DNA from: Candidatus Atribacteria bacterium
GTDB lineage: Bacteria; Atribacterota; Atribacteria; Atribacterales; JASGLU01
Assembly (NCBI GenBank): GCA_030156825.1
Contig: JASGLU010000018.1
Span: forward strand, 1-34,320
Reading direction: 5' to 3'
DNA: 34,320 nt
Positions within the stretch are counted from its first letter, which is position 1. Each line of letters begins with the position of its first letter. The translations under genes were made by a program, and so were the position numbers. Below, in pieces: positions 3,072 through 30,890 of the stretch. The notes below the pieces were generated by a model. It was not told where the DNA came from and did no database searches. It worked only from the letters and a program-made list of their open reading frames with translations.

Positions 3072-3120
3072 AAAGACCCCCCTTTGTTCTCTAATTTCTC
3101 TATATTGTAGCACAGAACAA

Positions 3121-3441
3121 GAAGGGGGGCAGCGCCCCCATTACTGAGGAAGTGCTTTCCTTCCTCAGTTAGTATTTATTTTTTTCATGTTTTGTCTTTA
3201 GGTTTTTGCCTTTCAACTATAAGGGGGAGTTCTTTTCCCCCTTATAGTGAGGAAGTGTCCTTCTTCCTCAGTTAGTATTTATTTTTATGTTGTTTTTCTT
3301 TTCCAGGGGGTTTATAAGGGGGAGTTCTTTTCCCCCTTATAGTGAGGAAGTGTCCTTCTTCCTCAGTTAGTATTTATTTTTATGTTGTTTTTCTTTTTCA
3401 GGGGGTTTATAAGGGGGAGTTCTTTTCCCCCTTATAGTTCT
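3121..3441. repeat. Double-hairpin repeat array, locus 1 (four HP1, three HP2; ~95-bp period)
   Basis: HP1 TATAAGGGGG-AGTTCTTTT-CCCCCTTATA starts at 3218, 3313 and 3408 (exact 95-bp spacing), preceded by a GGGGGC/GCCCCC version near 3124; HP2 TGAGGAAG...CTTCCTCA between them. Confidence 0.9.
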
Positions 3442-3657
3442 GTTATATTGAAAAAGCTACATCCATAAATAAGCCAGGGTATTATGTGTCTTTCAGCCGC
3501 TTGCCGGTATTGCAAATAGCGGCAGCAGCAGCGGGCTGGTGGGATTTATCGCAGAAGAAGTAAGTAGAGCAAATCCCAAAGATTAGGCTATGCAACCAAA
3601 CCGCCGGCAACAATTTAGCAGCAAATCCGTAGAGTTTCGGACCCCACAAAAATGTTT

Positions 3658-7271: not shown

Positions 7272-7510
7272 ACCTCCTCCCGTTTTATCTCTTTCTAAGT
7301 GAGAGATTTTCTTGCTGTTTTTGCGTATTTAATCTCCAATTGTTAGGTGGGGAAATTAATTTTTTCCCATTTTCTTCAGCCTTTGCGCAAATTATAGCAT
7401 ATTGCTAACTGCAAAAAGACCTTCTGTCTTTAGCGATTTTACTCCTAAAAATTTTTTGATAGCCCTCTCCTTTCTCATTTTCTCCATAATTTCAGGGATT
7501 ATGCTTTTAG

Positions 7511-7604
7511 CTCAAGTTGCACCATGAGTTCCAGAAATCAGTCTATATCAGGTCTTTTCTTTTGGGGATTCTCATTTTCTGGTAAAAATCCGCAACTTGG
7601 GTTA
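7511..7604 (+). repeat. Dispersed element copy 1 (MITE-like)
   Basis: ctcaagttgcaccatgagttccagaaatcagtctat...cgcaacttgggtt; ends carry CAAGTTGC/GCAACTTG inverted repeats; similar to 20619-20642, 22064-22138, 30806-30890. Confidence 0.7.
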
Positions 7605-15091: not shown

Positions 15092-15130
15092 ACTTATAAC
15101 CCTTTATAATATCTTGCAAAATTTTGTTTT

Positions 15131-15367
15131 TCTGGGGGGTGTTAGGGGGGGTTTCCCCCCTAATAGTGAGGAAGGTGTTTTTCTTTCCTCACTATTTTTT
15201 CCTTAAAGAATATTACTTGGACATTATATATGGCAATTTAGAGACAGGCAATATCGGTAGCTTTTGGACATCCTGGGTTGGTAGAAACAAGTGTCAGTAT
15301 TTGTCCTTTTTAGTCTTTAAGTTTTTTGTTTTTCTGGGGGGTGTTAGGGGGGTTTCCCCCCCTAATG
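15131..15367. repeat. Double-hairpin repeat array, locus 2
   Basis: TTAGGGGGG-GTTT-CCCCCCTAA (15142-15163), ATAGTGAGGAA...TTCCTCACTAT (15163-15195), second TTAGGGGGG...CCCCCCTAA (15344-15365). Confidence 0.88.
15193..15289 (+). repeat. ~97-bp repeat copy A, inverted relative to 34216-34316
   Basis: tattttttccttaaagaatattacttggacattatatatggcaattta(----)gagacaggcaatatcggtagcttttggacatcctgggttggtagaaaca; identical to the reverse complement of the right-edge copy apart from a 4-nt indel. Confidence 0.93.
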
Positions 15368-15376
15368 ACTTGTCAA

Positions 15377-16282
15377 TTAAGCAAACTGAAGCATCCGCTC
15401 TATACTCTTTTGTGCCCGGCTGATAACCTCTTTTGAGAGTTCCACCTTTGGCGTTTCCGCTTCTAAGGAGAGGAGCACTTTCTCCAGGGTTATTTTTTTC
15501 ATGTCTGGGCAAATAGCTTCCTCGCTGGCAGGGATGAATTGTTTACCGGGATTTTCCCGGATAAGGCGGTGGAGGATTCCCACTTCAGTTCCTACGATAA
15601 ACTCCTGTGCTGGGGAGGCCTTGGCTCGTCGACACATGCCTTCGGTGGACAAAACGTAGTCAGCTAATTCAGCTACTTCTGGCCGGCACTCGGGATGGAC
15701 TAAAATTTCGGCCTGGGGGTGAAGCCGCTTTTTCTCTAAAATGTGCTGGGGCAAAATCCCGGCGTGTACCGGGCAGTATCCTTCCCAGGTGATAAAGTCG
15801 CGGCCGGTTTGGGTGGAGATATAATGGGCCAGATATTTATCGGGAACAAAAATAATGGATTTGGCGTGAGTCAATCCTTTTTGGACTACAGAGAGCGCGT
15901 TGGCTGAAGTGCAGGCAATATCACATTCTGCTTTTACCGCGGCGCTGGTATTAACATAGCACAGGCCGTGAGCTTCCGGGTGCTGTTTTTTTAGCTCCTG
16001 CATTTCGCGGGGGGTGATAGTATCGGCCATGGGGCAGCCGGCTCCGGGTTCGGGAATAATTACCGTTTTTTCAGGAGAGAGGATTTTGGCTGTTTCGGCC
16101 ATAAAGTATACCCCGCAGAAGACGATAAGGTCAGCTTTGGTTTGGGCCGCCTGAAGGGATAACCCTAATGAATCGCCTAAGTAATCAGCTATCGCTTGCA
16201 CCTCGGGCAGCTGATAATTATGAACTAAGATAATGGCATTTTTTTCCTGTTTAAGCTCTTTTATTCTATCCTGAATGGTCAT
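15377..16282 (-). CDS. nadA: Quinolinate synthase A
   Basis: NAIILVHNYQLPEVQAIADYLGDSLGLSLQAAQTKADLIVFCGVYFMAETAKILSP; VHPECRPEV; Cys ligands present. Confidence 0.95.
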   Translation of the reverse strand: MTIQDRIKELKQEKNAIILVHNYQLPEVQAIADYLGDSLGLSLQAAQTKADLIVFCGVYFMAETAKILSPEKTVIIPEPGAGCPMADTITPREMQELKKQHPEAHGLCYVNTSAAVKAECDIACTSANALSVVQKGLTHAKSIIFVPDKYLAHYISTQTGRDFITWEGYCPVHAGILPQHILEKKRLHPQAEILVHPECRPEVAELADYVLSTEGMCRRAKASPAQEFIVGTEVGILHRLIRENPGKQFIPASEEAICPDMKKITLEKVLLSLEAETPKVELSKEVISRAQKSIERMLQFA

Positions 16283-22008: not shown

Positions 22009-22063
22009 CTCCTTTGTTGTTTATTATAATAATTACTGATTATGGTCGGCCAGACTGTGTTCT

Positions 22064-22138
22064 AACCCAAGTTATACCATAAGTTCCAGAAATAAGTCTA
22101 TTTCTTTTGGAGATCCTCATTTTTGGGTAATCCAGATT
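22064..22138 (+). repeat. Dispersed element copy 3
   Basis: aacccaagttataccataagttccagaaataagtctatttcttttggagatcctcatttttgggtaatccagatt. Confidence 0.8.
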
Positions 22139-22231: not shown

Positions 22232-22283
22232 TTAATCCTCTCCCCTCAAGGGAGAGGAGATGATAAAAATTGAGATAACTAAC

Positions 22284-22462
22284 AACTGCAGAAAGCGTTT
22301 TTCTTTCCTCAGTTGTTTTTGTCTTTTTGTATTTGTTTTGCCTTTCAGGGGGGTTTAAGGGGGGCGAAGCCCCCATTATTGAGGAAGGCGCTTCTCCTTC
22401 CTCGGTTGTATTTGTATTTGTTTTGCCTTTCAGGGGGGTTTAAGGGGGGCGAAGCCCCCATT
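22284..22462. repeat. Double-hairpin repeat array, locus 3 (85-bp period)
   Basis: CAACTG..GAAAG/CTTTC..CAGTTG; GGGGGC-GAA-GCCCCC (22360-22374); GAGGAAGG...CCTTCCTC (22381-22403); second GGGGGC-GAA-GCCCCC (22445-22459). Confidence 0.88.
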
Positions 22463-22466
22463 ACTG

Positions 22467-30706: not shown

Positions 30707-30805
30707 GCAATTAAGCAAGGGGTAGGGTGTGGTGTCTGAAAACGGGCATAAACTGCTAACGAGTGGGGGGTTCTACCTTTTGTCGGAAATGTTGGCCGGG
30801 TTTTT

Positions 30806-30890
30806 AACCCAAGTTGCACCGTAAGTTTCAGAAATAAGCCTATGTCGGGCCCTTCATTTTGAAGATTTTCATTTTTGGATAACCCAGATT
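30806..30890 (+). repeat. Dispersed element copy 4
   Basis: aacccaagttgcaccgtaagtttcagaaataagcctatgtcgggcccttcattttgaagattttcatttttggataacccagatt. Confidence 0.8.

Follow-up and report, generated by a model that had tools for sequence, protein, structure and literature searches.

The three hairpin clusters of the window (the whole 34,320-nt stretch that was analysed, contig C29 of a 1.98-Mb Candidatus Atribacteria MAG of 98 contigs and 93% completeness, designated G000) are members of a large family of short hairpin-forming intergenic repeats found in G000 and in some other Atribacterota. The family is apparently so far undescribed, and our literature searches found no earlier description of these repeats in Atribacterota. 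In appearance the repeats are closer to small REP/BOX-type mobile DNA than to a host RNA, and we hold it to be fairly probable that the arrays are accretions of small non-autonomous, hairpin-ended mobile repeats. In the best reading the family works like REP/REPIN or BOX sequences; membership in either is not claimed.

The arrays span positions 3122-3438, 15134-15365 and 22281-22463 and consist of two kinds of hairpins, HP1 and HP2, with T-rich spacers between them, all on the forward (+) strand. HP1 obeys the grammar GGGG(G)TT-n-nAAGGGG..CCCCTTn, that is, a G-run, TT and a stem such as TATAAGGGGG/CCCCCTTATA, while HP2 is of the type ACTGAGGAAG..CTTCCTCAGT. Array 1 has the order HP1-HP2-HP1-HP2-HP1-HP2-HP1. 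It opens with an HP1 of type C seen in the fold (GGGGGC-AGC-GCCCCC, 3125..3139) and continues with HP2 ACTGAGGAAG-tgctttc-CTTCCTCAGT (3143..3169; R1 match 3104-3187, 56 bits) and its T-rich spacer extending to about 3215, the type A HP1 ACTATAAGGGGGA-gttcttt-TCCCCCTTATAGT (3216..3248; R1 match 3203-3290, 70.9 bits), HP2 TGAGGAAG-tgtcctt-CTTCCTCA with a T-rich spacer after it (3248..3270), the G-run GGGGGTT with the type A HP1 TATAAGGGGGA-gttcttt-TCCCCCTTATA (3306..3341; R1 match 3298-3385, 86.4 bits), a further HP2 TGAGGAAG-tgtcctt-CTTCCTCA, also followed by a T-rich spacer (3343..3365), and a G-run with the final HP1 of type A (3401..3436; R1 match 3393-3497, 38.4 bits). Two 95-nt unit copies within this array are 99% identical. 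Array 2 begins with a G-run and the type B HP1 TTAGGGGGGG-ttt-CCCCCCTAA (15134..15163; R1 match 15125-15208, 69.4 bits), followed by HP2 AATAGTGAGGAAGG-tgttttt-CTTTCCTCACTATT (15162..15196), some 140 nt devoid of units and a G-run with the final HP1 TTAGGGGGG-tttc-CCCCCCTAA (15335..15365; R1 match 15327-15413, 26.7 bits). Array 3, of the order HP2-HP1-HP2-HP1, starts with the HP2 variant AACAACTGCAGAAAG-cgttttt-CTTTCCTCAGTTGTT, which has two internal mismatches (22281..22317), and proceeds through a G-run with the type C HP1 AAGGGGGGC-gaa-GCCCCCATTA (22346..22378; R1 match 22341-22424, 57.5 bits) and HP2 TTGAGGAAGG-cgcttct-CCTTCCTCGG with its T-rich spacer (22380..22406) to a G-run and the final HP1 of type C (22431..22463). 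HP1 closes all three arrays. The earlier note had described alternating HP1 and HP2 hairpins at three loci, the first two beginning and ending with HP1. The hairpins are indeed found at these places and both outer HP1s of arrays 1 and 2 are confirmed, but array 2 is an interrupted array and not a regular alternation. Its statement that no encoded protein explains the arrays also holds, as no ORF accounts for them.

Other repetitive sequences were seen in and near the arrays. The T-rich array spacers of L037, L038 and L097 and of the G000 loci L015 and L021 contain a third mini-hairpin, TACGCCGTAGGCTG or TACGTCGTAGACTG, whose stems GCC/GGC and GTC/GAC make a compensatory pair. A second dispersed repeat, AAGTTGCACCATGAGTTCCAGAAATCAGTCTAT-like and separate from the arrays, occurs in the window at 7505-7549, 22060-22104 and 30802-30846 with 82% identity, and sequence related to it adjoins the arrays in L014 and L049. 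Left of several G000 arrays (L007, L012, L016, L039, L044 and L047) lies GGTCTATCCT, in some cases accompanied by AGGATAGACC on the right; these are the halves of another palindromic repeat, so that hairpin loops of other repeats may serve the arrays as targets.

The distribution of the family is patchy. The HP1 pattern was found in 63 matching stretches among 85,000 species genomes, most of them in four Candidatus Atribacteria MAGs, and BLAST gave 63 matches in G000. The covariance-model search of the genome and its relatives that the earlier note had proposed was carried out: a model of the HP1-HP2 unit built from 80 sequences detected 144 intergenic units in G000 at E <= 0.001, among 150 scored candidates, and, within the order, 48, 68, 61 and at least 73 matches in the four genomes of genus g10 (G015, G019, G021 and G024), with no match in the other searched genomes of this order. 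The remaining genomes gave at most one match each, with the exception of the genus g16 (family f5, same phylum), and BLAST with a single unit agreed with this pattern. The weak g16 matches are real arrays in which the unit plan is kept and the sequence of HP2 is completely different: CTTTCA-GGGGTT-nTCAAGGGG..CCCCTTGA is directly followed by ATATCTTGTT..AACAAGATAT or other long stems and then by an AT-rich spacer, the CTTTCA-GGGG(G)TT lead being common to g16 units and many units of G000. The short grammar GGGGTTN{1,3}AAGGGGN{3,12}CCCC, in which one site may count more than once, occurs 181 times in G000. The counts are 23-62 in g10 and 102-126 in g16, several genera of f5 and f7 have 1-11, and the rest of the phylum has almost none; the reversed form matches 0-1 times. 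Of a stricter HP1 motif (two mismatches at most) one of the two g16 genomes has 197 copies and the other 166. About 29 of the 98 G000 contigs start within 400 nt of a repeat unit, as counted from covariance-model matches, which indicates that the repeats probably break the assembly. The gene start adjoining the array is near-identical in L047 (G000, contig C33) and L032 (G021, contig C91), genomes that are labelled as different families, which may reflect either a recent transfer or binning contamination.

Array 1 folds far beyond its shuffled versions (z -9.4 as RNA and -11.4 as DNA), array 2 moderately so (z -3.9) and array 3 modestly (z -2.7, 3 of 200 shuffles being as good). For the rest of the window, 125 hairpins compare with 94-117 expected under a second-order Markov model, and this small excess means that the clusters are special while the window as a whole is not. 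The compensatory changes in the stems, which the earlier note had inferred from the persistence of pairing, are real. Double-sided changes affect 10 of 18 pairs in the 80 units, with 71 cells against 20.2 +/- 3.4 in shuffled controls, which ignore relatedness, and 11-22 in slid controls, which correct for it; the HP2 register of RNAalifold had slipped, and the pairs were counted on a structure anchored on the outer base pairs. This maintenance holds genome-wide and in the relatives. The loop and HP2 sequences are not conserved.

In other genera, single-copy forms of the unit are discrete elements of 130-160 nt. In G030 the element is a block of 157-161 nt that begins with the hairpin TTTAAGGTATAGGAAT..ATTCCTATACCTTAAA and ends with HP1 and ATATCTTG; several copies, 94-100% identical and possessing both the left and the right hairpins, are surrounded by unrelated flanks. 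G032 (genus g14) has one copy with 94% identity to the G030 element and a shortened left end, located between a stop codon and the terminator-like hairpin of the upstream gene. The orthologous interval of its congener G031 is without the element, both flanks being aligned at about 78%, and in G028, where only the left flank of the site is present before the contig end, the element is absent from the part seen. At an orthologous array site of G019 and G015 the flanks are 87% identical and the units differ in number and sequence, G019 having four and G015, whose interval is partly unread, different and apparently fewer ones. A further site has different arrays beside the same gene in G000 and two g10 genomes, beside which a third g10 genome, with a different gene order, has none. 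Among the alignment units the median identity is 65% within an array and 68% between arrays, and since it is no higher within arrays, these appear to grow usually by accretion of units from elsewhere. Local tandem duplication is rejected as the general origin of arrays on the same ground, the exception being array 1, whose 99% identical pair of units is a local duplication.

The mobile-repeat reading rests on the high copy number, the intergenic dispersal, the discrete ends where the copies are single, the one presence/absence difference at an orthologous site, the tandem growth mostly from elsewhere and the stems kept through double-sided change. Counted against it are the local duplication in array 1, the fragmented and incomplete state of the MAGs of G000 and its relatives, and the fact that no transposase is assignable to the family.

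The stems also carry information on polarity. On the G-run strand a hairpin search penalising both mismatches equally found 54 G.T and 24 A.C pairs; 15 G.T cells in HP1 of G000 are of one kind and in part go back to a single inherited type, which reduces the independent excess. The loops keep their strand, as none of the 76 loops in G000 has a reverse-complement counterpart anywhere in the set, and isolated inverted loop copies are rare in g10 and g16. The strand bias together with the loop polarity suggests that one strand folds, as single-stranded DNA or as RNA. The strand of the element is also that of the local GC skew at 23 of 24 sites in g16 and in ratios of 31:10 in g10 and 26:15 in G000, which counts in favour of the mobile-repeat reading, with the limitation that this agreement is inseparable from that with gene direction; the single discordant g16 site follows the direction of its genes. 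If taken at face value, the g16 agreement would make the folding strand the lagging-strand template.

Under the mobile-repeat reading, one unit measures about 85-160 nt. Its left hairpin, HP2, is variable, the right end, GGGG(G)TT with HP1, is conserved, and a spacer rich in AT or T lies between the two. An enzyme provided in trans would recognise the hairpins in single-stranded DNA of one strand, the lagging-strand template being the most likely. The right end of an old unit would attract new units through its resemblance to the start of the next left hairpin, and the arrays would be built in this way. The pairing of the stems would be maintained by selection for the element to move, perhaps with a contribution from replication template switching, and influences on genes nearby, such as termination or mRNA ends, would be side effects.

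The strongest competing explanation is that of a host cis-acting RNA or promoter-proximal element, in which transcribed leaders, terminators or mRNA-stabilising ends are kept folded by host selection. The compensatory changes and the excess of G.T over A.C within the stems would fit it, as would the 12 terminator-like sites over array 1 (1.1 expected) and the similar hairpin lying 5' of IS200 tnpA. In g16 and the low-copy genera the element is moreover co-oriented with both neighbours at 26 sites against 2 (gene calls in these context counts are plain ORFs), usually nearer the downstream start, and in the low-copy genera it stands upstream of metK, lspA, rpoN and the SRP RNA (names read from sequence); such co-orientation upstream of genes would also be expected from a host function and is to be counted against a mobile repeat. 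In G000, however, the orientation to co-directional neighbours is random (7:6; 13:5 in g10) and the arrays are found between convergent, divergent and co-directional genes. The terminator-like matches are enriched and orientation to the upstream gene is random in G000; the idea of terminators of upstream genes was set aside for this genome because of the unbiased orientation. The unconserved loops and HP2 sequences, the absence from the other searched genomes of the order, the presence/absence difference at an orthologous site and the Rfam results (a tRNA as the sole match in the window, none in the relatives' array loci) also speak against host RNA, which we consider unlikely as the general explanation. 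Of the selection for structure proposed in the earlier note, the maintenance of stems genome-wide and in relatives therefore stands; selection on a host structure is unsupported in view of the 7:6 orientation, the absence from same-order relatives, the within-array identity and the discrete insertions elsewhere. As a component of a mobile element the hairpin can itself be under selection, and replication template switching is also able to create compensatory changes (PMC8794818).

A role as a chromosome-architecture signal, in which an oriented motif with T-rich bent spacers would mark one replichore strand in the manner of KOPS, Chi or gyrase-binding BIMEs, seems to us very unlikely. It agrees with the spacing of HP1 motifs in g16, about one every 9-12 kb, and with the strand agreement with GC skew in g16 (23 of 24 sites) and g10 (31:10). 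This agreement is nevertheless weak in G000 (26:15, p 0.12), most relatives are without the element, and up to six units in one place would be unexpected for such a signal. A role as host RNA or in chromosome structure is possible chiefly for those genera in which orientation is strict.

Equally little can be expected, in our opinion, from mutational maintenance alone, the chance of which appears slim. Here functionless repeats would have their arms copied onto each other by replication template switching, which is able to generate and preserve perfectly paired stems that carry double changes (PMC8794818), and the strong divergence of hairpins between the 87% identical flanks of the orthologous site is in line with this. 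Inverted loops, which would be the strongest footprint of interstrand switching, are nonetheless absent in G000 and rare in g10 and g16, for which reason such switching was rejected as the main cause of covariation; G.T and A.C intermediates exist, and dispersal and discrete ends are left unexplained.

The search for a mobiliser bears on the weakest of the alternatives. A family search of 61 genomes with the Pfam Y1 model left most carriers without an intact gene: G000 has only a Y1 transposase fragment below the Pfam cut-off, and G015, G019, G024 and G034, all incomplete MAGs, have none. The Y1/RAYT-type genes sampled in the rest of the phylum have palindromes of the GGTGCCAGGCACC type or of other types at their flanks, and not HP1 or HP2; a RAYT/Y1 enzyme acting in trans was rejected on these grounds. 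IS200 tnpA (Pfam Y1_Tnp) of other phyla has an HP1-like hairpin on its 5' side, but both end hairpins of these IS200 copies are CCCCGCGGCttGCCGCGGGG-like and the HP1-like hairpin is within the tnpA leader. On the anatomy of five IS200 copies HP1 was rejected as the IS200 recognition hairpin, and since the hairpins common to both IS ends differ from the HP1-like one, the resemblance does not point to the mobiliser. Among the copies of the Atribacterota element that were seen, none carried tnpA. In several phyla (L059, L086, L090, L106 and L119) we observed an IS200 type with similar end hairpins and a conserved GGGGGTTnATAAGGGGG leader hairpin before tnpA. That the repeats are REP/REPIN elements of a RAYT or IS200/IS605 ends is most improbable on this evidence, despite their high copy number, intergenic location, paired hairpins, tandem clusters and compensatory changes (compare PMC3116915). 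Viral origin was also rejected, as viral contigs gave two weak single-hairpin matches and did not match either the g16 motif or the CRISPR spacer. One viral contig with structural genes (L122, 3579-3637) carries a single HP1-like hairpin between genes (R1, 30.9 bits), and an apparent CRISPR spacer of G009, a genome of the same order (L155, reverse strand, approximately 1535-1501), CCTCTCTCAGTTTGGGGTTTAAGGGGCGAAGCCCC, contains an HP1-like hairpin and has no match in viral contigs.

Among known systems, the BOX elements of Streptococcus pneumoniae (125 elements of 67-637 bp; PMC3049150) are similar in size and copy number and likewise show modular stem-loops with a variable number of inner units, intergenic dispersal and a patchy presence among relatives that is read as parasitic; the likeness noted is one of architecture. 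The number of HP1/HP2 units in the Atribacterota arrays does vary, as the modular BOX plan requires. Unlike BOX, however, the units consist of two alternating hairpins with a G-run before one of them, and while BOX has terminal inverted repeats and target duplications, the single empty site in Atribacterota gave no readable target duplication. REP, BIME and REPIN sequences (PMC3116915, PMC6006769) are similarly dispersed, high-copy extragenic hairpin doublets, as are the 144 units of G000, which has no RAYT/Y1 partner for them; inspection of the aligned units revealed no consistent GT[AG]G at the 5' foot of the hairpins, HP2 being preceded by ACTGAG or AGTGAG. The terminator-like SPRITE repeat of S. 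pneumoniae (PMC3049150) resembles HP2 and its spacer in having a long stem and then a T-rich tract, but is a single hairpin where our arrays alternate two. The IS200 leader hairpin of Aminicenantes, Deltaproteobacteria, Nitrospirae and other MAGs shares the GGGGGTT-n-ATAAGGGGG..CCCCCTTAT grammar and the location 5' of a gene. It is, however, a leader of tnpA and not a mobile end, and it lacks HP2, arrays and CTTTCA before the G-run. True IS200/IS605 ends, which TnpA (Y1) recognises, carry one and the same hairpin on either side of a copy with tnpA, a position in which HP1 was not found.

A more far-reaching form of the mobile-repeat reading, which we advance only tentatively and regard as doubtful, is that of a class of miniature mobile elements spread over several Atribacterota families, with a constant right end (G-run and HP1) and a left hairpin wholly replaced between genera, copied via one folded DNA strand at replication forks by a non-Y1 enzyme. 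A mobiliser other than a Y1 enzyme would be a new one. For the carrier genomes, the family represents a large part of their structured intergenic repeats and is probably responsible for much of the fragmentation of their assemblies. With many copies per genome and two hairpins, the system makes it possible to separate stem maintenance, strand choice and replication direction, and the orientation, which is strict in one genus and looser in another, offers a useful contrast.
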